DNA of 53,622 nucleotides from NCBI GenBank assembly GCA_016936255.1, contig JAFGYE010000040.1, forward strand, positions 1 through 53,622, read 5' to 3'. Below, piece after piece: positions 10,362 to 34,603 of the stretch (position 1 is its first letter; the number at the start of each line of letters is the position of its first letter). The notes beneath the pieces are model-generated. The model made no database searches. It was not told where the DNA came from and was given only the letters and a program-made list of their open reading frames with translations. The stretch is from Marinifilaceae bacterium. GTDB taxonomy: Bacteria; Bacteroidota; Bacteroidia; Bacteroidales; Marinifilaceae. A program made the position numbers and the translations under genes.

Positions 10362-11598
10362 ATTCCTTTTCGAGTAAGATATAGGCACCAAAAGTTTTAT
10401 TTTGAAATGGACTTACCAATGGCAGATATCCATTTACCCATTTTCCATCCTGAATTTCAAGTGGATGTTTCTTCATCATTTCCAAATGGAATTGGTCGAA
10501 ACTTGCTTTGAATTGATTAAAGATTTTAAAATTACCTTTCGAGCCCGAACGAATATTTTTGTTTAGAAAAAGAGCCAAAGTACTCATGTTGTACCGAAGA
10601 TTAATCTCCAGGCAAGGATGAATTCTCAGCTTTTCTTCACGATTCAAAACCAACATACAATCAACTCCAAAATAACCGGTATAATTGGTTGCAATATCCG
10701 AATCCGAAAGAATTTTCGATATGCAGGTTTGTAGTTCGAGAATTTTGTTTTCAGTTAATAATGCTTTTATTTCTGAAGGAATACCACCAAGGTAATTACT
10801 CAAATATTGTCCTTTCGAATCGGTTTCAAAAAATCCCAATCCCAGATAATCTAATTCCCCTTTCCCGTTGCAATAATATTGAAGCGAGAAATCGAATACT
10901 TTATTTAAAAAAGGTTCAACCATTACATAGGATTGTGAAGCAAGTATCCCATTAATTGATTGAATAATTGATTCATTTAATGTGGCGTACCGAAGAATTT
11001 GTATGCCTCTTCCTGCTGAGCTTAAAGGTGCTTTAATTACAATTTGTTTCCATTTGTTCATTAGGTTCTCGACCTCTGAAACACTGGTGCAAATTTGTGC
11101 TGTTTGATCTATATTAATGAATAATGAGTTTTTGGAACAATTGATTGCCTCTTTTACAACTTCCAGTGCTTTTTTACGGCAGTATAACTCACGATGCTCT
11201 TCTTTCCAGAAAGCATTGGGCTGATTTAAAAAATTGATGCTGCATGATTCTTTAAAGGGTTTAAGAATATGATGAATTCTAGGACTCCACCCCCAGGGAT
11301 GAAGACTGCCTTTTGGCATTTTAATAAACTCAGAATCTGCTAATGCTGCGCTTAGTGGTTTGAAATTTGGTAAGCTTAGGCCCGCCTTTGTCAGTAGGTT
11401 AATAAATCGTTGGTCAGGCAATTGATGAACCAATACTGTATCCATTTTATCAGCAAAAAACATCGGCAATACATCCAGATCCTGCTCAAACTTTGTTAAG
11501 GTTTTATTGGGCATAAAACTAACAGTTCCGTTAGCAATAGCCATTTCGCAGGTTGGATTGTAAATAAATATTTTGGGGGTAATTTCAGTTTGTACCAT
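10360..11598 (-). CDS. ATP-grasp fold protein, conserved in Bacteroidota
   Basis: 412 residues, cytoplasmic. The N-terminal part starts with IFIYNPTCEMAIANG, a block I associate with a Bacteroidota conserved hypothetical family. The middle has an ATP-grasp nucleotide-binding region: QIVIKAPLSSAGRGIQIL (Lys plus glycine-rich loop) and YVMVEPFLNKVFDFSLQYY. The end of the domain has GYFGVDCMLV and HPCLEINLRYNM, where the E-x-N pair would hold Mg-ATP. The enzyme would ligate a carboxylate to an amine or similar nucleophile; the substrate is unknown. It is divergent from sfsA with about 78 bases between starts, and converges on sodN. Confidence 0.75.
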   Translation of the reverse strand: MVQTEITPKIFIYNPTCEMAIANGTVSFMPNKTLTKFEQDLDVLPMFFADKMDTVLVHQLPDQRFINLLTKAGLSLPNFKPLSAALADSEFIKMPKGSLHPWGWSPRIHHILKPFKESCSINFLNQPNAFWKEEHRELYCRKKALEVVKEAINCSKNSLFINIDQTAQICTSVSEVENLMNKWKQIVIKAPLSSAGRGIQILRYATLNESIIQSINGILASQSYVMVEPFLNKVFDFSLQYYCNGKGELDYLGLGFFETDSKGQYLSNYLGGIPSEIKALLTENKILELQTCISKILSDSDIATNYTGYFGVDCMLVLNREEKLRIHPCLEINLRYNMSTLALFLNKNIRSGSKGNFKIFNQFKASFDQFHLEMMKKHPLEIQDGKWVNGYLPLVSPFQNKTFGAYILLEKE

Positions 11599-11619
11599 TC
11601 AAATTCATATCTTTTCAAC

Positions 11620-11652
11620 TTTACAAAAGTAGGTGAAATCTGCTTATCTTTG
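11620..11652 (+). promoter_or_regulatory. sfsA promoter
   Basis: TATCTTTG at 11645-11652 is an exact TAnnTTTG element. A TTTA (-33-like) lies at 11620-11623, with a 21-base spacer. The start codon at 11677 would then have a leader of under 20 bases. Confidence 0.6.
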
Positions 11653-11676
11653 GTTTTCCAACATAAATATATAAAT

Positions 11677-12372
11677 ATGATTTTTCCCAATAAATTAGTT
11701 CACGGTCGCTTAATAAAGCGGTACAAAAGATTTTTAGCTGATATTGAGTTGGATAATGGAGAGATTGTTGTTGCGCATACTTCTAATTCGGGTAGCATGA
11801 AATCTTGTTTGGAAGAAGGGGCAGAGGTGTACTTAACTTTCGTTGATGATCCCAAACGCAAAACCAAGTATACCTGGGAAATGATCAGGATCAACGGGTC
11901 TTGGGTAGGAATTAATACTTCAGTTCCGAATTTACTGGTTTACGAAGCCGTCAAAAATCAAGAAATTGGTGCTTTGAGAGGATATTCGTTCGTAAAAAGA
12001 GAGGTGAAATTTGGAGATAGTCGTTTTGATGTTTTTGCTTCGAATGAAATAGAAGAGTGCTTTATCGAAGTGAAAAATGTAAGTATGAAAGTTGGTGATT
12101 ATGCTTGTTTTCCGGATGCAGTAACCACCCGGGGAAAAAAGCACTTAAATACATTAATGCAGGTAAAGAAAGAAGGCAAAAGAGCCGTGATGGTTTATGT
12201 GATTCAACGAACAGATGTTGAAAAATTTTCACCTGCATATGATATTGATCCGGATTATGCAATGGCTTTAAAAGAAGCTTACGAGAATGGAGTGGAGGTT
12301 TATCCGATCCAGGCAATTGTTACGCCGGAACATATTGAGCTGGGAGAACTATTGCCTCTCGAATTGGAATAA
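11677..12372 (+). CDS. sfsA: SfsA-family DNA-binding/nuclease-like protein
   Basis: 232 residues from ATG 11677, a normal SfsA length. Typical blocks are LVHGRLIKRYKRFLADIEL, VAHTSNSGSMKSCLEEGAEV, WEMIRINGSWVGINTSVPN and CFIEVKNVSMKVGDYACFPDA. Next come TTRGKKHLNTLMQVKKEGKRA and VYVIQRTDVEKFSPAYDIDP. The EVKN and FPDA-TTRG motifs belong to a restriction-endonuclease-like core. SfsA was named for a sugar-fermentation effect in E. coli and its true activity is poorly defined. A start 87 bases upstream is open, but it would overlap the divergent gene and adds a non-homologous tail, so ATG 11677 is preferred and agrees with the promoter. Confidence 0.88.
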   Translation: MIFPNKLVHGRLIKRYKRFLADIELDNGEIVVAHTSNSGSMKSCLEEGAEVYLTFVDDPKRKTKYTWEMIRINGSWVGINTSVPNLLVYEAVKNQEIGALRGYSFVKREVKFGDSRFDVFASNEIEECFIEVKNVSMKVGDYACFPDAVTTRGKKHLNTLMQVKKEGKRAVMVYVIQRTDVEKFSPAYDIDPDYAMALKEAYENGVEVYPIQAIVTPEHIELGELLPLELE

Positions 12373-23250: not shown

Positions 23251-25386
23251 ATGGAAAATATGATAGAAACAAAGAGTCGTCAAGATTTATTGGTGACTAA
23301 AACACCGATATTGAACCAAGGGAATCCAGAAGAAAAAAGAAAAGAGATTCTCAACTATTTTAGAAAGACATGGGAATTGGATGAACTCCTATACGATTGC
23401 TTAAACGGACAAGAGGCATTTTTACACCGGGCTGATCCATTGCGCCATCCTCTGGCTTTTTATTTTGGACATACAGCCACCTTTTTCGTAAATAAATTGA
23501 TATTGGCAGGAATCATCACCGATAGATTAAATCCAAAATTTGAATCGATGTTTGCTGTGGGAGTGGACGAAATGTCGTGGGATGATTTGAATGACAAACA
23601 TTACGAATGGCCAACGATGCAGGAAACTCTGGCATATCGTAATGAAGCAAAGAAGATGATTGAGAAGCTGATTTTAGAGCTTCCGCTGAAAATTCCTATC
23701 AATTGGGAAAGTCAGTTTTGGGTAATAATGATGGGAATAGAGCATCAGCGAATTCATATCGAAACATCATCGGTACTGATTCGTCAGTTGCCCATCCATT
23801 TGATAAAACCCAATTTGCTGTTTAAGATTTGTAAGGAATGGGGAAATGCTCCGGTCAATGAATTGTTAAAAGTGAAATCGGGAAAGGTAAGAATAGGAAA
23901 AGGCAAGGACAATGCTTTGTATGGCTGGGACAATGAGTTTGGAGAATTCCAGTCTAAAATTAAATCGTTTCATGCATCTAAGTTTTTGGTTTCGAATGAG
24001 GAGTTTAAGGGTTTTGTTGACGATGATGGATACAAAACAGAAAAATGGTGGACGGAAGAAGGCTGGGGCTGGGTGACTTATAAAAAATGTGAGTATCCTT
24101 TGTGGTGGCTGAAAGAAGGAAGCGAATGGAAGCTTCGTACCATGCTCGAGATGATTGAAATGCCTTGGAATTGGCCTGTTGAGGTAAATTATCTGGAAGC
24201 AAAGGCTTTCTGTAACTGGAAATCTGCGAAGACAGGTAAAACTTTGCGCCTGCCAACCGAGGCAGAGTATTATCGCTTACGAGATTCGTTAAAAATTGCA
24301 GATCAACCTGAATGGGAAACGGCTCCCGGGAATATTAATTTGGAGCATTACGCTTCATCCTGTCCTGTGGATAAATTTGAAACCGATGGTTTTTATGATG
24401 TAATTGGGAATGTTTGGCAATGGACAGAGATGCCTATTTCAGGTTTGGATGGTTTTGAGATTCATCCGTTTTACGATGATTTTTCAACACCAACTTTTGA
24501 TGCCAAGCACAACCTGATTAAAGGTGGTTCCTGGATATCGACAGGAAATCTGGCCATTCGCGATTCCCGTTATGCTTTTCGGCGTCATTTTTTTCAACAT
24601 GCTGGTTTTCGATACATTGAATCAGATCAGGAGGTGGTAATTGAAACAGATTACTATGAAACGGATGGTTTAGTATCGCAATATTGTGAATTCCAGTATG
24701 GAAAGGAATATTTTGGTGTGAAAGATTATTCTAAAACTTGTCTTGCTTTTATCGAAGATCACTTAAAAAACCTGAAAAAAGGAAATGCATTGGATATAGG
24801 ATGTGCAACGGGCAGAACGACTTTCGAGTTGGCGAAATATTTTGATAAGGTAACAGGTTTGGATTTTTCAGCTCGTTTCATTCGCATTGGAACTCAGTTG
24901 AAAGAAACTGGAAAACTAAAGTATATCCGACAGGAAGAAGGGAAGCTAACAAGTTATCAGGAAATTAAGTTAGATGATTGCGGTTTGGATTCTGTTCGTG
25001 ATAAAGTTGAATTTTTTCAGTCAGATGCCTGCAATTTAAAACCCATTTATACCGGATACGATTTGGTGTTTGCAGGCAATTTAATCGACAGACTGTACGA
25101 TCCGATTCAATTTTTGCAAGAGATTCATTTGCGAATTAATGATGGTGGAATTTTGGTTATCACTTCTCCCTATACTTGGCTGGAAGAATTTACCGAGGCT
25201 GATAAATGGGTAGGAGGATACCGAAAAGATGGCGAACCTTTTACATCATTTGATGGTTTAAAGGACATTTTGAGGGAACATTTCGATTTGTTGGATGAGC
25301 CCAAGGATGTTCCTTTTGTAATTCGCGAAACGTCACGGAAATTTCAACATACCATATCGCAGATGACGGTTTGGAGAAAGAAATAA
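23251..25386 (+). CDS. ovoA: Ovothiol synthase OvoA (sulfoxide synthase plus methyltransferase)
   Basis: 711 residues, cytoplasmic. OvoA joins cysteine and histidine with oxygen (5-histidylcysteine sulfoxide synthase); its C-terminal domain N-methylates the later 4-mercaptohistidine. Domains in order: DinB-like (about 30-200) with the iron ligands HxxxHxE in EHQRIHIETSSVL, an FGE-sulfatase-type domain (about 205-455) with RLPTEAEYYRLR, NVWQWTEMP and KGGSWISTGN, and a SAM methyltransferase (about 470-711) with ALDIGCATGRTTFELAKYF and VTGLDFSARFI. Full length is that of bifunctional OvoA. The second-step lyase OvoB is not in this window. Ovothiol is a redox buffer, fitting the nearby oxyR. It starts with ATG 23251; ATG 23260 is an alternative. 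Confidence 0.93.
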   Translation: MENMIETKSRQDLLVTKTPILNQGNPEEKRKEILNYFRKTWELDELLYDCLNGQEAFLHRADPLRHPLAFYFGHTATFFVNKLILAGIITDRLNPKFESMFAVGVDEMSWDDLNDKHYEWPTMQETLAYRNEAKKMIEKLILELPLKIPINWESQFWVIMMGIEHQRIHIETSSVLIRQLPIHLIKPNLLFKICKEWGNAPVNELLKVKSGKVRIGKGKDNALYGWDNEFGEFQSKIKSFHASKFLVSNEEFKGFVDDDGYKTEKWWTEEGWGWVTYKKCEYPLWWLKEGSEWKLRTMLEMIEMPWNWPVEVNYLEAKAFCNWKSAKTGKTLRLPTEAEYYRLRDSLKIADQPEWETAPGNINLEHYASSCPVDKFETDGFYDVIGNVWQWTEMPISGLDGFEIHPFYDDFSTPTFDAKHNLIKGGSWISTGNLAIRDSRYAFRRHFFQHAGFRYIESDQEVVIETDYYETDGLVSQYCEFQYGKEYFGVKDYSKTCLAFIEDHLKNLKKGNALDIGCATGRTTFELAKYFDKVTGLDFSARFIRIGTQLKETGKLKYIRQEEGKLTSYQEIKLDDCGLDSVRDKVEFFQSDACNLKPIYTGYDLVFAGNLIDRLYDPIQFLQEIHLRINDGGILVITSPYTWLEEFTEADKWVGGYRKDGEPFTSFDGLKDILREHFDLLDEPKDVPFVIRETSRKFQHTISQMTVWRKK

Positions 25387-26529: not shown

Positions 26530-26555
26530 GACAATTGTAGTGGGAGATACCCCTA
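26530..26555 (-). promoter_or_regulatory. ECF-type promoter, site A
   Basis: Minus strand: TAGGGGTA, 10 bases, CAATTGTC, ending 36 bases before the start codon at 26493. The same bipartite motif with the same spacer occurs at sites B (32738-32763) and C (29589-29614). Confidence 0.72.
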
Positions 26556-26657
26556 TTTACAATTTCAAAAAATTGATGCTGGGAAAGAAAATAAGAAGAA
26601 TGCAGAAGTGCATCCATATCTTTTCATGTTCTTTGTGTTGAATCAGATTATAAATGT

Positions 26658-28508
26658 TTAGAATCTAAGGCCGAATTGCCAGCCAAGCCAATATTGATTT
26701 TTAAGTGTTGCAACAGCTTGATCCAGATAATAATTTCCAAAATACATGGTGTTTTTACTGGAGAAATTAATTTTTGAAATCTGATTTTGTTCTTTATCCG
26801 GACTACAGAAATTGTAAGATGGACCCGTACTAAGGGTGATGTTTTTATTCAGTTTAATTGTAAGACCCAGCTGAGCCCGGTACAGATCACCGGCAAAAAC
26901 ATCGTAGTCTGAATCAGTGTTAAAAAGGGAAGAACCAGACACATCCAGATTGACTGAAAATTTACGGTTGGTATTGCTTGTGCAGCCAATACCATACGCT
27001 GCGTTAAGATATTTACCCGCTCCAATTCTTAGAAAGCTGTAAAGATTTTTGCCACCCGTTTTGTAGGCTGCATTAAAGTAGAACGACTCATCGGTTGAAA
27101 GTTCCCATTTGTGGTAGCCGTTTTTAATGATATTCACCAATCCAATCGGAAAACCATTTTCAATAGTGTCGGCAAAATTGATGAGACCAATTTGTATGCC
27201 CCTCAACTTGTCTGTTTGATTGTAAATCCCAGATATTTGCACCCCATTGGTTGTCCCTCTCACCATATTAATTGCCCCCGAAATTTGAAGACCATCTACC
27301 GAGTTTGCCTGATTGTAGACACCACCAACCTGCAGATTAATTCGCTCACCACCATGCAGATTAATTCCTCCACTGATTTGTCCGTTCCAACCTCTGTAGG
27401 GGACGCTGTCCAATGATTTTGCCGCAGCAGAATTTATGGCTCCACTCATTTGAAGGCCTTTTATATCGCCTTTTACTCTGTTAATTACTCCAGCTAGTTG
27501 AACTCCATCCATGTTTCCCAGATTTGTATTGACAACACCGGAAGCTTGAACACCATGCACATCTTCACCCACTACGTTCGCAACGCCGGAAATTTGGACA
27601 CCATTCATTTCCTGCCGGATGATATTGGCTACGCTTCCAATTTCGAACCCCTCAATATTTGCCGAATATCCGGCGATAATATTCATAGATAATTTGTTTG
27701 TAACCAGTCCATTTGTTAATTGATTGGTTCCCCAAGAGGGAATAAATGATACCTGAACAAATCGTACTTCTTTCACATTGAGGTTGTTGGAGATATAGAG
27801 CGCTTTGTTCGTCACCATCAGGTTGACAAAACCAATATCCTGCAACTCTTTATTGGTGTAGGCCCAATTAATTGCTTTGGTTCTGGAATGTAAGTTTTGG
27901 GCAAAAGCTGGTTCTGTTTTAAAGATGCTTTGTGCCTGCCATGGTTTAAGAACAATATTTAGCTGTTGTTTTTTACCAGCCTGAACATAGACAATGGTGT
28001 CTTTGTATCCTTTGCAGCTAAAGTTAATAGCAGAATTTTGATTGCCTTCTAAATGCAGCAGGTATTTTCCGTTAGGATTGGTAATGAATGAAGCTTGCCG
28101 ATTCACCTCATAAACAATTGCATTTTCGAGTGGATTTCCGTTTGAATTTGTAATCACACCAGATAAAACCCACATTGTACTGCTCAAACCAGACTTATTT
28201 TTCGATTGTAAGATAACATGCGAACCGATCACTTTATAGGTCAATCTTCCTTTAAAAAGTTCATCCAATATTTCTTCGAGAGATTGATGCTTGCCCTTAA
28301 TCGAAATCATTTTACTTGGGTCGAGTAACATTGCATCGAAAGAGAAGTTAAAGCCTCCTAGTTTCTCTAGAATAAACATTGTTGTTTCCGTACTTTGATT
28401 TGTAACTTCCAGGTTGATCTTCTTTTCCAGAAAGTTTTGAGCCTGTATCTTCATGGTGCAGAGAATACAGGCTATTGTTATTGATAGAATCAGGGCAATT
28501 TTATTCAT
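26658..28508 (-). CDS. STN domain plus LA_2272 repeats, surface protein
   Basis: 616 residues. A signal peptide is followed by an STN (secretin/TonB short N-terminal) domain at about 29-105 (KINLEVTNQSTETTMFILEKL, KHQSLEEILDELFKGRLTYKV). Then come a carboxypeptidase-D-like domain at about 113-195 (LSGVITNSNGNPLENAIVYEV), about ten LA_2272 repeats (GVQISGVANVVGEDVHGVQ) and an aromatic-rich barrel-like end. In classical FecA systems STN belongs to the TonB receptor and talks to FecR; here it sits on this repeat protein and the receptor lacks it. The gene overlaps fecR by 8 bases, consistent with a direct partner. Interaction is inference. Confidence 0.8.
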   Translation of the reverse strand: MNKIALILSITIACILCTMKIQAQNFLEKKINLEVTNQSTETTMFILEKLGGFNFSFDAMLLDPSKMISIKGKHQSLEEILDELFKGRLTYKVIGSHVILQSKNKSGLSSTMWVLSGVITNSNGNPLENAIVYEVNRQASFITNPNGKYLLHLEGNQNSAINFSCKGYKDTIVYVQAGKKQQLNIVLKPWQAQSIFKTEPAFAQNLHSRTKAINWAYTNKELQDIGFVNLMVTNKALYISNNLNVKEVRFVQVSFIPSWGTNQLTNGLVTNKLSMNIIAGYSANIEGFEIGSVANIIRQEMNGVQISGVANVVGEDVHGVQASGVVNTNLGNMDGVQLAGVINRVKGDIKGLQMSGAINSAAAKSLDSVPYRGWNGQISGGINLHGGERINLQVGGVYNQANSVDGLQISGAINMVRGTTNGVQISGIYNQTDKLRGIQIGLINFADTIENGFPIGLVNIIKNGYHKWELSTDESFYFNAAYKTGGKNLYSFLRIGAGKYLNAAYGIGCTSNTNRKFSVNLDVSGSSLFNTDSDYDVFAGDLYRAQLGLTIKLNKNITLSTGPSYNFCSPDKEQNQISKINFSSKNTMYFGNYYLDQAVATLKNQYWLGWQFGLRF

Positions 28509-29532
28509 TCTTTTCCGGGTATGATATTATAAACGTGTTTTCTTTTCTGCTGTAAGTTAAGTTAAATGTCTTTGAGATAACTTTAATCACATTTTCAGCA
28601 TTTTCATCAATGAATGAAGAAGAGTAGTACAGATTGTTTATTTCAGGATTGTCTGATTTTATAGTGATTTGATAACAGGATTCAAGTACTTTGAATACTT
28701 CTTTTAAGGGTTTATTTCTGAAAGACAATCTCTTATCAACCCAGAAAAAAGCCGAAGAATTGCTTGTCAATCTTATAATAGTATCTTGTTGGCTCGAAAT
28801 TAAGCCTCCTTCGTTATTGGTTAAAATCATGTGCAAGGTATCGGTTTGAGTTTTATTCGGGCGGAAGAGTTCTACTTTACCGGAATTCACATCCACAAGA
28901 ATATCTCCGTTTTCTTTCATCTTCACCTGAAAGCTTGTCCCCAATACCTTAACGCCGCCAATACCTGCATTAACAATAAATGGTCTGAGAGTGTCTCTTT
29001 TCACAGTAAAGAAAGCTTCACCTTGCAAATTTACAATGCGTTGCTTGGTTTTTGAGGTGTGGTAGCTAATGTGAGCGAACTTATTCAAATAAATTTTTGA
29101 TCCATCAGGTAAACTATCCTGAATGGTAGATTGGCTGGTGTTGGTCAGTAAGAATTCTTCTGTTTGAGTATAATCATCGGAATACCAATTGAAAATACCA
29201 AAAAGAATAAGAATGAATGCCGCTGCAGAGCTGATTAAAGCAATTCTAAATCGGGAAAACCGTTGAATAGACGGGGAGAGGGTTTTTTCATGCTGATCCA
29301 ACCGGGAAGATAGCTTTGCCCACGCTGATTTTTTATTAACCGAAATTGGATGAGGATTTAATTTGCCGCTTTCCAGCCAAATTTGTTCCAATTGATCTAA
29401 ATGTCTGCGGTTTTCGTCCTTTTCTTCCAGCCAACGAATAACCATGTTTTGCTCTTCCTTGTTGGTTTCACCCAAAAGGAATTTGGCAAGGAATGTATCA
29501 TTAATATGTAGGTTATCGTTTTTCATGCACAA
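28501..29532 (-). CDS. FecR-type anti-sigma factor
   Basis: 343 residues. The N-terminal cytoplasmic part (1-80) has the Bacteroidota FecR pattern FLAKFLLGETNKEEQNMVIRWLEE, which binds the sigma factor. One membrane helix (about 90-110, ISSAAAFILILFGIFNWY) follows. The periplasmic FecR domain contains LPDGSKIYLNKFAHISY, RIVNLQGEAFFTVKRD and RPFIVNAGIGGVKVLGTSFQV. The last 70 residues form the usual DUF4974 domain (SFRNKPLKEVFKVLESCYQITI). It would hold the ECF sigma factor at 29612-30187 until a periplasmic signal arrives. It has its own ECF promoter copy (site C) and overlaps the STN-protein gene. Confidence 0.9.
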   Translation of the reverse strand: MCMKNDNLHINDTFLAKFLLGETNKEEQNMVIRWLEEKDENRRHLDQLEQIWLESGKLNPHPISVNKKSAWAKLSSRLDQHEKTLSPSIQRFSRFRIALISSAAAFILILFGIFNWYSDDYTQTEEFLLTNTSQSTIQDSLPDGSKIYLNKFAHISYHTSKTKQRIVNLQGEAFFTVKRDTLRPFIVNAGIGGVKVLGTSFQVKMKENGDILVDVNSGKVELFRPNKTQTDTLHMILTNNEGGLISSQQDTIIRLTSNSSAFFWVDKRLSFRNKPLKEVFKVLESCYQITIKSDNPEINNLYYSSSFIDENAENVIKVISKTFNLTYSRKENTFIISYPEKNE

Positions 29533-29588
29533 TTAATTTCTCTTAATCGGGTATTGCTTTTATTTGGTGTATTGTTCTTTATAAGTAT

Positions 29589-29614
29589 GACAATTGTAAT
29601 TGTGTTTAACCCTA
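29589..29614 (-). promoter_or_regulatory. ECF-type promoter, site C (fecR)
   Basis: Minus strand: TAGGGTTA, 10 bases, CAATTGTC. It overlaps the last codon of the sigma gene and ends 56 bases before the fecR start, so the anti-sigma gene can be transcribed separately from the sigma gene. Confidence 0.68.
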
Positions 29615-30187
29615 TTCACCGTTAAAAAAATGATGGAAGAATAGAAGCAGCAACGGGAGATAGTCTGCCAATTCCTTTCGCAAAAATTGCAGGGCTTTTC
29701 CCATTTGATTTTCTACTGTTTTAACAGATATCCCCAATTTATCAGCTATTTCTTTGTATTTGAGTTGCTCATATCTGCTTAGAATAAATATTTTCCTTCG
29801 TTGTTCTGGCAACAGATCAATACTGCTTCTGATTTTAAGTTCCAATTCGGAAACATTCATCGGATCATTTTCCAGGCGTTCGGAATATTCGATTTCTTGT
29901 CGGTTATGTTCTTTGTATTTTTCGCGGATATTGATGTGTTTAATCAGATTTAGACTGGAGTTTCGAACGGCACGGTATAAATAGGATTCCATTGAACTTT
30001 CAATGCGAATATCGTGTCGGTGAATCCATAGTTTAAAAAAAACTTCCTGAACAACTTCTTCGGATCCTTCTTCTTCTTTCAGAAAATTATAGGCATAAGA
30101 ACACAAACGACTGTAATGGGCGTTAAACAAAGTTTCGAAATCTATTCTGTTAATACATTCCGATCGTATTGTTTCTTCTGTAGTCAA
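29612..30187 (-). CDS. ECF RNA polymerase sigma factor, FecI-like
   Basis: About 191 residues from a TTG at 30187. Sigma region 2 reads LFNAHYSRLCSYAYNFLKEEEGSEEVVQEVFFKLW and region 4 reads DLLPEQRRKIFILSRYEQLKYKEIADKLGISVKTVENQMGKALQFL (given as the segment at about 125-175); both are standard for ECF factors. An upstream TTG (30211) is open but overlaps the promoter -7 element, so a later start is more likely. No ATG is present near the N-terminus. It pairs with the FecR protein encoded next; together they should read the TAGGGkTA-N10-CAATTGTC sites. Confidence 0.88.
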   Translation of the reverse strand: MTTEETIRSECINRIDFETLFNAHYSRLCSYAYNFLKEEEGSEEVVQEVFFKLWIHRHDIRIESSMESYLYRAVRNSSLNLIKHINIREKYKEHNRQEIEYSERLENDPMNVSELELKIRSSIDLLPEQRRKIFILSRYEQLKYKEIADKLGISVKTVENQMGKALQFLRKELADYLPLLLLFFHHFFNGE

Positions 30188-30208
30188 TGTTAAGCTAGTT
30201 AAGAGCAA

Positions 30209-30216
30209 CAAAGGTA
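30209..30216 (-). promoter_or_regulatory. Promoter -7 element of the ECF sigma gene
   Basis: TACCTTTG on the minus strand is an exact TAnnTTTG match, with a TTTA about 18 bases upstream. It lacks the ECF motif, so sigma itself seems to be made by the housekeeping polymerase. Confidence 0.5.
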
Positions 30217-30269
30217 AATGTTTTTTTTATGATGTAAATTAATTAAAGCTCTGATATATAAATAGAATG

Positions 30270-30304
30270 CCACGCAAGGAACGTTTTTTGCGATTCTTGC
30301 GTGG
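30270..30304 (-). terminator. Terminator-like hairpin after the TonB receptor gene
   Basis: A perfect 9-bp stem CCACGCAAG/CTTGCGTGG with a 17-base loop between the receptor stop and the sigma gene. The following bases on the minus strand are only moderately T-rich, so termination may be partial. Confidence 0.6.
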
Positions 30305-30336
30305 TGTTTATTTGTTTTAGTCTGTTTTATTTAGCC

Positions 30337-32697
30337 TTAGAAGTAAAGTATATACTGCAAACTAGGCAATAAAGACAGTTGTTCACCATCTTCTATTTTA
30401 TGAGTTGCTTCATTATATCTTTCCAATATTTTGGTCTTATTATTACTTGCATTTTTAATATCAAATTTGAATTCATGCTGGGTTTTTTTGCGGTTTAGTT
30501 TGTAGGAGAACGAAACATCCAGAATAAAAAGATCATCTCCTTGTTTGCTGAATTCACTATTGGCGAGATATACCGTTTCTCCAGCCTTCTGGCTTTTCAT
30601 CAAATCTACAGGTGTATAATATTGTCCTCCTCTGAATGTTATTTTTCCATTTAAACCAATTCTGTTCTGATCATTTTGTCCAACTTTATACTCTTTTCCA
30701 ATAAGCAGATTGGTCGCATAATTTCCATTGTATCTTGAATTGCGTTCAATACCATCTAAGGCTGTAAATTTTGATTCGTATAAAGATCCGGTAAGCAAAT
30801 AGTAAAAATTGTTATGGAAGAATCGTTCCAGACTTAACTCCAAACCGTAGTTTTTACCAGTACCTTCGTTTACAAAATCAAAATTGGCCAAACCCTCTTT
30901 TATATCCTGAAGTACTATTTTACTGTTTGGGTCGTTTTCAACAGCTACGTCATATAAATCCTGATAATAGGCCTCTGCTTTTAAATGCAGGTTGTAGTTC
31001 AGCTGATTGTTATAGCCAAGTACATAGTGTATGGCTTTGCTCATTTTTAAATTTTTGTTTGGCGTGTAGGTATTGTTTTCATTATCATGCAATTGAACGA
31101 AATAGGTGGACAGACTCTCTGTTTTGCTATGCATACCAAAGCCAAAGGAAAATGATTGGTTGGATAAAAACTGATACTTCAATCCAACTCTTGGTTCAAT
31201 GGTGTAATCATTATTCAATTTAAAATAACTTGCATGCACTCCGCTTACTACAGTGAAGTCTGATGTAATTCTGTATTTCCAGTTCACAAAGGATTGGAAT
31301 AAATGAGACTTACCTTCGGAATTTACATCTGTTGTAAATGCTCCGGTATTTTTAAAGTCGTTAACACTCTTGATGTCAAAACCCAAACGGGTGTATTCAA
31401 TTCCGGCCTTTACACTGTTTTTAGCATTTAGTTTTGTGTTGAATGTGCTGACATATTTAAAGTAATTGTGTTGATATTTTTCATTTAAGGCAACAAACAT
31501 AGTATTGTCATCACCTAAGATTCTTGATTCATTTTGAGTATTGGTTGCTGAGTAGGCTAAAGTGTTTTTCAGGTACGATTTTTTACCAATGGGCAAAAGG
31601 TTTGATATTCCAATTACAGTAAGATCTGAATTGACATTGTATTCCCCAAGAGTAATCGTTTCCTCATCATTCTCTTCCTTAGCCAGGATGTTGCTTTTTC
31701 CCAAAAGACCAAATAGAGTGAATTTACCAGCTTTTTGGGTAGGGAGTACAATTTTAAACGATCCATCCTGATATTTGGGAACACCATCGAAATCTACCAA
31801 TCCGATATTATCCAACAGTTCAAGTGAAGAATAGCGATAGTTGGCTAAATAAGAGCCGGAGTAATTCTTTTTTAGAGGACCTTCAACAGTAAAATCGATA
31901 CCATAAGTGCTAAATCCAAAGGCCTGTTCGTGTTTGGCGTTATTACCCGAACGTAAATTAATATCGAATATTCCGGAATAGGCATTTCCGTATTCTGCAG
32001 TGAAGGCACCCGTGAAGAAATCGGAATTGCTCAGCATGCTGCTGTTTAGAGCATTAATTGCACCTCCGGTTGATCCTTCGTCGGCAAAATGATTTGGATT
32101 TGGTATTTCTATTCCTTCCATTCGCCATTGAATTCCCTTGGGAGAGTTGCCTCGTACAATAATTTCATTTGAGCCCTCACCGTCGCCCGAAACACCGGCA
32201 TAACCTGATACCATACGGGCAGGGTCGTTCAAAGATCCCGAATACCTGCTGGTTTCTTCAACGGTGAAAGCCTGACCACTTACAGTAGCCATTTTATTCA
32301 AAGTTTCGTGTTTGGCTGTTTTCGGATGAACTGTTACCTCTTCGATATGTGTAAGCGATTCGATTAATTCAATTTTCAGAACAACTTCTTTAGCTGAACC
32401 TATTTCAATATTTGCGATGTTTTTTGCTTCGTAGCCTAAACAGCTAATGTGTATGGAAATTCGGCCAATAGAGACCTGCTTTAAAATGAAATTGCCATCC
32501 ATGTCACTCGCCGTTCCCTTAAATGGATCGGAATTTAGAATCACAATATTAGCTCCAATAAGTCCTTGTTTGGTTTCATGATCGATGATGGTTCCCCGAA
32601 TGGTTTGGGAGTACAGTTTACTATTTGATTGTGCTTTGGATTCCTGATTCCATGCAAGAATCAACAGTAACATTAACAGGTAATTTCTTACTTTCAT
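30337..32697 (-). CDS. TonB-dependent outer-membrane receptor without STN domain
   Basis: 786 residues. A signal peptide is followed by a carboxypeptidase-D-like domain at about 30-115 (IRGTIIDHETKQGLIGANIVI). The plug domain, at about 120-235, contains RGNSPKGIQWRMEGIEIPNPNHFADEG and FFTGAFTAEYGNAYSGIFDI. A 22-strand-type beta-barrel ends in aromatic YILYF. No STN domain is present. It would import an unknown ligand using TonB energy. The gene is the first of the sigma/FecR locus and carries ECF promoter site B. It ends with a hairpin. The substrate cannot be told from sequence. Confidence 0.88.
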   Translation of the reverse strand: MKVRNYLLMLLLILAWNQESKAQSNSKLYSQTIRGTIIDHETKQGLIGANIVILNSDPFKGTASDMDGNFILKQVSIGRISIHISCLGYEAKNIANIEIGSAKEVVLKIELIESLTHIEEVTVHPKTAKHETLNKMATVSGQAFTVEETSRYSGSLNDPARMVSGYAGVSGDGEGSNEIIVRGNSPKGIQWRMEGIEIPNPNHFADEGSTGGAINALNSSMLSNSDFFTGAFTAEYGNAYSGIFDINLRSGNNAKHEQAFGFSTYGIDFTVEGPLKKNYSGSYLANYRYSSLELLDNIGLVDFDGVPKYQDGSFKIVLPTQKAGKFTLFGLLGKSNILAKEENDEETITLGEYNVNSDLTVIGISNLLPIGKKSYLKNTLAYSATNTQNESRILGDDNTMFVALNEKYQHNYFKYVSTFNTKLNAKNSVKAGIEYTRLGFDIKSVNDFKNTGAFTTDVNSEGKSHLFQSFVNWKYRITSDFTVVSGVHASYFKLNNDYTIEPRVGLKYQFLSNQSFSFGFGMHSKTESLSTYFVQLHDNENNTYTPNKNLKMSKAIHYVLGYNNQLNYNLHLKAEAYYQDLYDVAVENDPNSKIVLQDIKEGLANFDFVNEGTGKNYGLELSLERFFHNNFYYLLTGSLYESKFTALDGIERNSRYNGNYATNLLIGKEYKVGQNDQNRIGLNGKITFRGGQYYTPVDLMKSQKAGETVYLANSEFSKQGDDLFILDVSFSYKLNRKKTQHEFKFDIKNASNNKTKILERYNEATHKIEDGEQLSLLPSLQYILYF

Positions 32698-32737
32698 GAT
32701 TTTTATTTCGCATTATTATTCTTAAAATCATCAGGAA

Positions 32738-32763
32738 GACAATTGAAGAAAGAAATACCCCTA
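32738..32763 (-). promoter_or_regulatory. ECF-type promoter, site B (TonB receptor)
   Basis: Minus strand: TAGGGGTA, 10 bases, CAATTGTC, ending 40 bases before the receptor start codon. It is identical to site A in both boxes. The remainder of the 32698-33023 gap holds an imperfect inverted repeat GAAACAGAT/ATCTATTTC (32971-32993) and no other gene. Confidence 0.72.
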
Positions 32764-34087: not shown

Positions 34088-34603
34088 ATGGTGAATAAGG
34101 AAAATAAGTTTAATGATATTGTCACGGATAATGGCGAAAGAATTAGGCGGATTTGCAGCTATTACAGTCCCAATCACGAGGATAGGAAAGATATGTATCA
34201 GGATATTTTGGTTAATATCTGGAAAAGCCTTGATTCTTTTAGGGGTGACGCATCAATCAACACTTGGATCTATCGGATTGCAGTAAATACTTCTTTGGGT
34301 TTTACCGGAAAAGCATTCAAACAAATGCAGATGATTGTAGATGTCGATACTGAAAATCTTTCTCTTCTGTTTGATGAAGGCACAAAGGAAAAGCTCGAGC
34401 AGGAAGCTCAGTTGAATCAACTGCAAATTGAGCTAAATCAAATGTCGGTAATCGATAAATCACTGATGTCGCTCATGCTCGAAGGTCTTTCGATGCGGGA
34501 AATTGCTGATGTTATTGGCATTACCGAGCCCAATGTAAAAGTGAAGATTCATAGAATTAAAGAGCAGTTAAAATCTAAATTATCAGGAGGCAAGCATGAA
34601 TAA
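34088..34603 (+). CDS. ECF RNA polymerase sigma factor (second)
   Basis: 171 residues. Region 2: NGERIRRICSYYSPNHEDRKDMYQD, LVNIWKSLDSFRGDASINTWIYRIAVNT. Region 4: LMLEGLSMREIADVIGITEPNVKVKIHRIKEQLKSKL (given as the segment at about 130-165). This is a full ECF factor with a short linker. It overlaps the next gene by 8 bases; that gene encodes a four-helix membrane protein, a plausible but unusual anti-sigma partner, since no zinc anti-sigma or FecR domain is present. The motif TAGGGkTA-N10-CAATTGTC is absent here, so this factor has a different regulon. Confidence 0.9.
   Translation: MVNKENKFNDIVTDNGERIRRICSYYSPNHEDRKDMYQDILVNIWKSLDSFRGDASINTWIYRIAVNTSLGFTGKAFKQMQMIVDVDTENLSLLFDEGTKEKLEQEAQLNQLQIELNQMSVIDKSLMSLMLEGLSMREIADVIGITEPNVKVKIHRIKEQLKSKLSGGKHE

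Follow-up and report, generated by a model that had tools for sequence, protein, structure and literature searches.

A predicted ECF sigma factor promoter in a Marinifilaceae FecR/LA_2272 locus and in similar loci of the Bacteroidota

Two kinds of described system come closest to the locus treated here. In the ferric citrate system FecI-FecR-FecA of Escherichia coli, an extracytoplasmic function (ECF) sigma factor is paired with a FecR that has an STN-like end, the STN module is carried by the TonB receptor, and the receptor promoter is of ECF type. The SusC-linked ECF sigma/anti-sigma pairs of Bacteroides have sigma factors of the same family as the one described below. ECF promoters follow, as a general rule, a GTC-type -10 box at a set spacing from the other box. 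Bacteroidota can carry dozens of ECF sigma factors (a passage of one study gives 50 for B. thetaiotaomicron; PMC12596196), whose recognition sequences are scarcely known in the literature consulted. Part of that 2025 study reports a non-significant motif for one such sigma, SigW-1 (PMC12596196), and a section of a 2013 comparative study calls the prediction of such promoters challenging and dependent on start-site data (PMC3878776). We describe a five-gene sigma/FecR locus and its thrice-repeated two-box element in a window of 53,622 nucleotides from a Marinifilaceae bacterium (Labilibaculum; GCA_016936255.1, contig JAFGYE010000040.1); "window" means this whole stretch, and positions refer to it. 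A sequence-only reading had proposed the element as the recognition sequence of the local ECF sigma factor. Among the matches listed, no title or abstract treated this promoter or LA_2272 proteins together with sigma factors, which is not proof of absence.

The five consecutive minus-strand genes encode a TonB receptor, an ECF sigma factor, a FecR, a protein joining an STN module to an LA_2272-type part (here called the putative transducer), and a free LA_2272 protein. The locus is likened to FecI-FecR-FecA by its genes and sites, not by iron. As there, an ECF sigma goes with a FecR with STN-like end, an STN module is found on a further protein, and the receptor promoter is of ECF type; the E. 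coli sigma gene is described as not autoregulated in a passage of PMC9249621, and likewise no site precedes the window's sigma gene. Unlike in E. coli, the STN module is on the LA_2272-type protein instead of the TonB receptor, in which a domain profile scan found no STN match, and fecR has an ECF promoter of its own, apart from sigma. With the Bacteroides pairs the locus shares the FecR-type regulator and a SusC-like CarbopepD region; unlike them it has no SusD and no glycan enzyme among the five window genes scanned, and its promoter consensus is defined in the present analysis. The SM6 promoters of Flavobacterium psychrophilum, which belong to type IX secretion genes, have CGT instead of TTGTC when compared at -10, according to part of PMC9723704.

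The pattern TAGGGKTA-N10-CAATTGTC has three exact matches in the window, all on the minus strand and at the gene starts where the sequence-only reading had placed them (Table 1). With up to 3 mismatches allowed, 5 matches were found against 0.81 expected, a number reached in 0 of 100 shuffles. The search was extended to the whole Labilibaculum genome (4,711,564 bases in 120 contigs), K being replaced by N. At 0-1 mismatch only the three window sites were found, so the predicted confinement to the locus holds over these 4.7 Mb; 8 further matches appear at 2 mismatches. The relaxed form TAGGGKTA-N13-TTGTC adds one exact copy, which lies between sigma and fecR in a paralogous system (contig C88). 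The distance to the start codon had been given as 36-56 bases, which is right for the receptor (40) and the LA_2272 gene (36) and probably wrong for fecR, whose more likely start, an ATG at 29526 conserved in 9/9 aligned sequences, gives 62. The TAG of the -35 box of promoter 2 is the stop codon of the sigma gene. The sigma gene itself does have the housekeeping-type box claimed for it in place of the motif; the box is kept as TA-C/T-CTTT-G/A in all nine aligned sequences, where the ECF element is absent, and is close to TAnnTTTG, the -7 box consensus given for the main sigma factor of a Flavobacterium in part of PMC9723704.

Comparison with relatives bears out the element. For footprints, upstream regions from the window and from Labilibaculum, Marinifilum and Ancylomarina were aligned (8 for the receptor, 9 for fecR and 5 for LA_2272, each count including the window); both boxes are fixed or nearly so and unmoved, while spacer and outer flanks drift. 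Of nine genomes of the genus, window-type sites occur in 6/6 that carry this sigma and 0/3 that lack it. Five have three exact copies each, every copy at this locus. The sixth, G001, is a diverged relative (72-78% protein identity) with two sites at up to 1 mismatch, of which one precedes the receptor gene and the other a different receptor gene (794 residues); its fecR site retains TAGGG and ATTGTC with three mismatches. The three genomes without a site (G003, G004, G006) have a best sigma match of at most 40-41% identity, and therefore lack this sigma within the sequence at hand, a call that for G006 is limited by an assembly 63% complete.

An alignment of the STN/LA_2272 protein, used to scan named genomes, yielded 64 loci, from Marinifilaceae, Prolixibacteraceae, Chitinophagaceae, Cyclobacteriaceae, Sphingobacteriaceae, Flammeovirgaceae, Crocinitomicaceae, Dysgonomonadaceae and Prevotellaceae, among others. 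Genera with the system and with cultured members include Marinifilum, Algoriphagus, Mucilaginibacter and Pedobacter. The order sigma, FecR, LA_2272-type protein is found in 58 (all except L156, L163, L173, L177, L186 and L194), and 31 have a receptor of the window type, some contigs being cut. The eight nearest loci (L131-L138) were set aside, leaving 199 regions upstream of classified genes in 56 loci for the promoter test. A trimmed core, TAGGGGTA/TTGTC with a gap of 12-14 and up to 2 mismatches, was found in 70 of them (sigma 36/54, receptor 17/24, LA_2272 12/22, FecR 4/52, STN 1/47). Of the controls, 2 regions matched when each box was turned backwards and none when the entire core was; 60 permuted cores averaged 1.8 regions and reached 10 at most. 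Before other genes the core itself was found in 12 of 340 regions. A gap of 13 occurs in 68 regions, every other gap from 8 to 19 in 0 to 12. At least one classified gene is preceded by a site in 58 of the 64 loci.

Sites also precede head-GIN (DUF2807) lipoprotein genes in separate lineages (L146:9918, L150:11376, L151:9209 and L152:4547, that of L151 having 2 mismatches and lying 205 bases away), and in L155 a gene whose product matches START slightly below the cut-off. The very small regulon of the sequence-only reading is well supported by comparison; that the element itself occurs Bacteroidota-wide had been missed.

The sites carry a start-site signature. We aligned 65 non-redundant sites out of 86, nearest kin included; they have TAGGGGTA, a little-conserved middle and TTGTC, then A or G 10 bases past the T of GTC in 65/65. 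For the test of this purine, the predicted +1 column played no part in selecting sites: it is a purine in 58/58 sites with enough downstream sequence (background 0.556, p 1.7e-15), and in 50/50 when nearest kin are left out. This column places the predicted starts at 32729 (G) for the receptor, 29580 (A) for fecR and 26521 (A) for LA_2272. By its sequence the window element is thus of ECF type, with fixed spacing, a GTC-type -10 and a start about 10 bases downstream. A fixed purine would not be expected at a repressor or activator site, and bears on the proposal that the sites are operators of a DNA-binding regulator instead of promoters. Symmetry speaks for operators: the -10 box holds the palindrome ACAATTGT in 2/3 window sites, the palindromic CAATTG is shared by the window and most of its nearest kin, and the fecR site has a second CAATT. 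However, CAATTG is hardly seen outside Marinifilaceae, where TTGTC remains; the element is asymmetric, with a single spacing and the purine at the expected +1; and 58 of the 64 loci have sigma and FecR genes alongside it (a shared transcription factor gene was not searched for). We consider operators very unlikely.

Sites of one locus resemble each other. Among 31 loci with two or more sites, 20 representatives were compared, with near copies dropped and 3-mismatch sites admitted given the +1 purine. Shuffles gave differences as low as observed in 0/2000 cases for the -10 side and 26/2000 for the -35 side; the likeness is lacking in the spacer (637/2000). Likeness in the boxes and not in the spacer is what a separate reader for each locus would be expected to produce. 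Motif conservation, the gap of 13, the purine and the shared -10 letters argue that the element is an ECF promoter and that its reader is almost certainly the local sigma. That the three elements are promoters for RNA polymerase with the sigma of 29612-30187, in the circuit proposed below, is very probable on this comparison, which gives good support to the concrete recognition sequence first proposed for this factor. The predicted layout is a -35 box TAGGGGTA, 13 bases, the -10 box TTGTC, and a start 10 bases after the T of GTC.

Table 1. Features of the sigma/FecR/LA_2272 locus and its paralog
Feature	Position	Strand	Evidence
ECF promoter 1, TonB receptor gene (TAGGGGTA-N13-TTGTC)	32738..32763	-	motif match, uniqueness, alignment
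ECF promoter 2, fecR and overlapping STN/LA_2272 gene	29589..29614	-	motif match, uniqueness, alignment
ECF promoter 3, free-standing LA_2272 gene	26530..26555	-	motif match, uniqueness, alignment
TonB-dependent receptor, 786 aa: CarbopepD_reg_2, Plug, barrel	30337..32697	-	domain profile matches
Hairpin in receptor/sigma gap, possible terminator	30270..30304	-	fold z -3.08 for 30240-30330
TACCTTTG, sigmaA-type -7 box of sigma gene	30209..30216	-	conserved in 9/9 aligned sequences
ECF sigma factor (TIGR02985 Sig70_bacteroi1), probable TTG start	29612..30187	-	179.4 bits, cut-off 126.4
FecR-type sigma regulator, FecR and FecR_C domains	28501..29526	-	profile matches
Putative transducer: weak STN, CarbopepD_reg_2, LA_2272-like part	26658..28508	-	profile matches
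LA_2272-repeat protein, 349 aa	25444..26493	-	NF047436 43.3 bits, cut-off 25
C88 system: sigma/FecR/860-aa receptor/DUF4249	L109 and orthologs		paralog in Labilibaculum

Several points weigh against assigning the sites to this sigma as promoters. No site precedes any classified gene in six of the 64 loci (L152, L156, L177, L192, L193, L194), and at 2 mismatches none is found before 18/54 sigma, 7/24 receptor and 10/22 LA_2272-type genes; those sites that are found at 2 mismatches may include chance matches. The TAGGGGTA/TTGTC form was trimmed after the loci had been viewed, so the test was repeated with the untrimmed pattern of the sequence-only reading, which at up to 3 mismatches of 16 was found in 47 of the 199 upstream regions. 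Turning each box backwards leaves 1 region and reversing the entire pattern none; 40 permuted patterns average 0.25 regions, with 2 at most. The exact 13-base core has 30 matches in 295 further genomes of the phylum and its reversed control 43; with no such enrichment, a match by itself says little when these genes are not nearby. Loci were available for 28 of the 30, and in 8 of these a gene for a sigma or LA_2272-type homolog comes next. The missing enrichment would fit chance similarity in AT-rich intergenic DNA. Against chance, the counts at the loci are far above the reversed, permuted and other-gene controls, one gap is preferred, and the boxes are conserved through drift; it is already contradicted by the preference for gap 13, the footprints and the +1 purine, and is scarcely credible. 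Finally, the element before the fecR of the C88 system is very similar to those of the window, so that cross-reading is possible.

The C88 system resembles that of the window in its TAGGGGTA -35 box and in having a site in the sigma/fecR gap. The sites might thus be promoters shared by several FecI-type sigmas, the C88 paralog for instance, as suggested by five genomes of the window's clade in which the C88 gap has TAGGGGTA and ATTGTC at the window's spacing, 15 bases before GTC. But in four genus genomes (G003, G004, G006 and G001) the C88 site differs from the window's, with CTCGTC or CCGTC at -10 and one base less, 14 before GTC, so the C88 family seems to have its own -10. Moreover, G003, G004 and G006 carry the C88 system and no window-type site, and at the after-sigma boundary of 14 of the 20 other sigma matches in the window's own genome, those examined, such a site was found at C88 only. 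Sharing among several sigmas is therefore unlikely, though less so than operators. The C88 -10 in the window's clade may represent capture by, or convergence on, the window's sigma.

The 794-residue receptor of G001 (L120:90-2474) is 44-47% identical to C88-type receptors, and shorter; an exact window-type promoter lies about 100 bases upstream. One match with 1 mismatch, in L117, has no gene downstream. Some relatives of the window genes have other regulators as neighbors. A 38% relative of the window receptor and an LA_2272-type protein (L122:1235-5669, L050:5900-8867) adjoin genes that by eye are two-component-like, not sigma/FecR, and lack the site; the G006 receptor and G008 LA_2272 genes beside two-component genes have no site (best 4-5 mismatches of 13). 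In L047:6808-9370 and L048:5610-8196 an ECF sigma with a C-terminal tail (354-365 residues) adjoins an LA_2272-type protein, without a TAGGGGTA site; for LA_2272 beside tailed sigma in G021 and G031, again no site was found, the best having 4-5 mismatches of 13. The tailed sigmas beside LA_2272 genes are a second kind of sigma/LA_2272 pairing.

The domain content of the putative transducer points to a signalling role. Its CarbopepD_reg_2 domain scores above cut-off and matches the solved SusC-homolog domain 9hfj; the STN match (PF07660) is weak, 24.5 bits against a gathering cut-off of 28.4, as is that to LA_2272 (NF047436), 19.2 bits against 25. Among the 47 aligned relatives, at E <=0.001, STN is found in 30, CarbopepD_reg_2 in 44 and the LA_2272 repeat in 35, and 5 match the SusC/RagA model TIGR04056. 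The profile scan found no Plug or TonB barrel behind the module of the window protein, a further difference from the Bacteroides pairs; the protein ends in Phe. With STN on an LA_2272-type protein and a receptor without STN, the system would work like FecIRA without being a strict member; by analogy, we infer that the signal to FecR comes from the LA_2272 protein instead of the receptor.

In the proposed circuit, the sigma (matching PF04542 and PF08281 for regions 2 and 4) would be expressed from a sigmaA-type promoter of its own and be restrained by FecR (PF04773 53.7 bits, cut-off 24; PF16344 55.4 bits, cut-off 24.4; by eye one apparent transmembrane stretch). The transducer would present an N-terminal STN module, the type of domain with which FecR-type regulators make contact, on an LA_2272 domain predicted to lie in the outer membrane. 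A surface signal would free the sigma, which would raise the levels of receptor and free LA_2272 protein and add to those of FecR and transducer. By its sequence the receptor promoter is of ECF type, and it would depend on the window's sigma. Promoter 2 is predicted to drive the overlapping STN/LA_2272 gene too (it overlaps the fecR end by 8 bases), a point that the sequence-only reading had missed. That reading also had the anti-sigma made only after activation, which is over-stated: the sigma/fecR gap has no minus-strand terminator-like site in a terminator scan and no unusual RNA fold, so the sigma transcript can read into fecR, and FecR is probably made at a basal level too. In the receptor/sigma gap, the hairpin has stem letters that differ in Marinifilum yet still pair (alignment, by eye), and was not reported by a simple terminator scan.

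Since the sigma would raise FecR and the transducer, the loop in this lineage would feed back on the brake and the sensor, not on the sigma. The sign would be reversed if FecR were a pro-sigma factor, making the induction of fecR and the transducer positive feedback. FecR is reported to have that role in E. coli, where FecI needs it for activity according to a passage of PMC9249621; for the window we rate it as unlikely.

The position of the promoter varies among the loci. In 36 of 49 sigma rows of the two main placements the site (up to 2 mismatches) is before sigma itself, as in Algoriphagus, a placement that the sequence-only reading had missed; in 13 sigma rows it is in the sigma/fecR gap, namely the window, nine other Marinifilaceae, two Flammeovirga and one unplaced Bacteroidetes genome. 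A tree of 59 sigma rows has one change between the two placements, by a quick method with many weak forks (Shimodaira-Hasegawa-like approximate likelihood ratio test, SH-aLRT, 89) and with 4 rows unassigned. Six further rows have the site before another gene upstream of sigma, and pooling them with the sigma-placed group gives three changes. The change is counted without direction; either placement may be the earlier one.

The system is broader and differently built than the sequence-only reading described. We put at about even the chance that it is Bacteroidota-wide: an LA_2272 outer-membrane sensor with a SusC-like STN module, itself without TonB transport, would act via FecR on an ECF sigma with the code TAGGGGTA-N13-TTGTC, controlling LA_2272 proteins, a receptor of about 785 residues and head-GIN (DUF2807) lipoproteins; one event on the sigma tree would have relocated the autoregulatory promoter from sigma to fecR, so that a circuit amplifying itself became one inducing brake and sensor only, or the reverse. 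Comparative genomics alone provides a recognition sequence together with predicted starts, and a regulon open to testing one base at a time. The analysis also points to a transducer whose signalling module is on a protein other than a TonB receptor, and to feedback rewired in nature, for which related species could be compared.

The locus has neighbors on the plus strand. Convergent with it, at 23251-25386, is the gene for OvoA, an ovothiol synthase (TIGR04344 683.9 bits and TIGR04345 351.1 bits, both above cut-off). The divergent neighbor, at 34088-34603, probably encodes a second, different ECF sigma factor; the sigma query has a match in its L042 counterpart (11226-11741; phmmer 1.8e-07).
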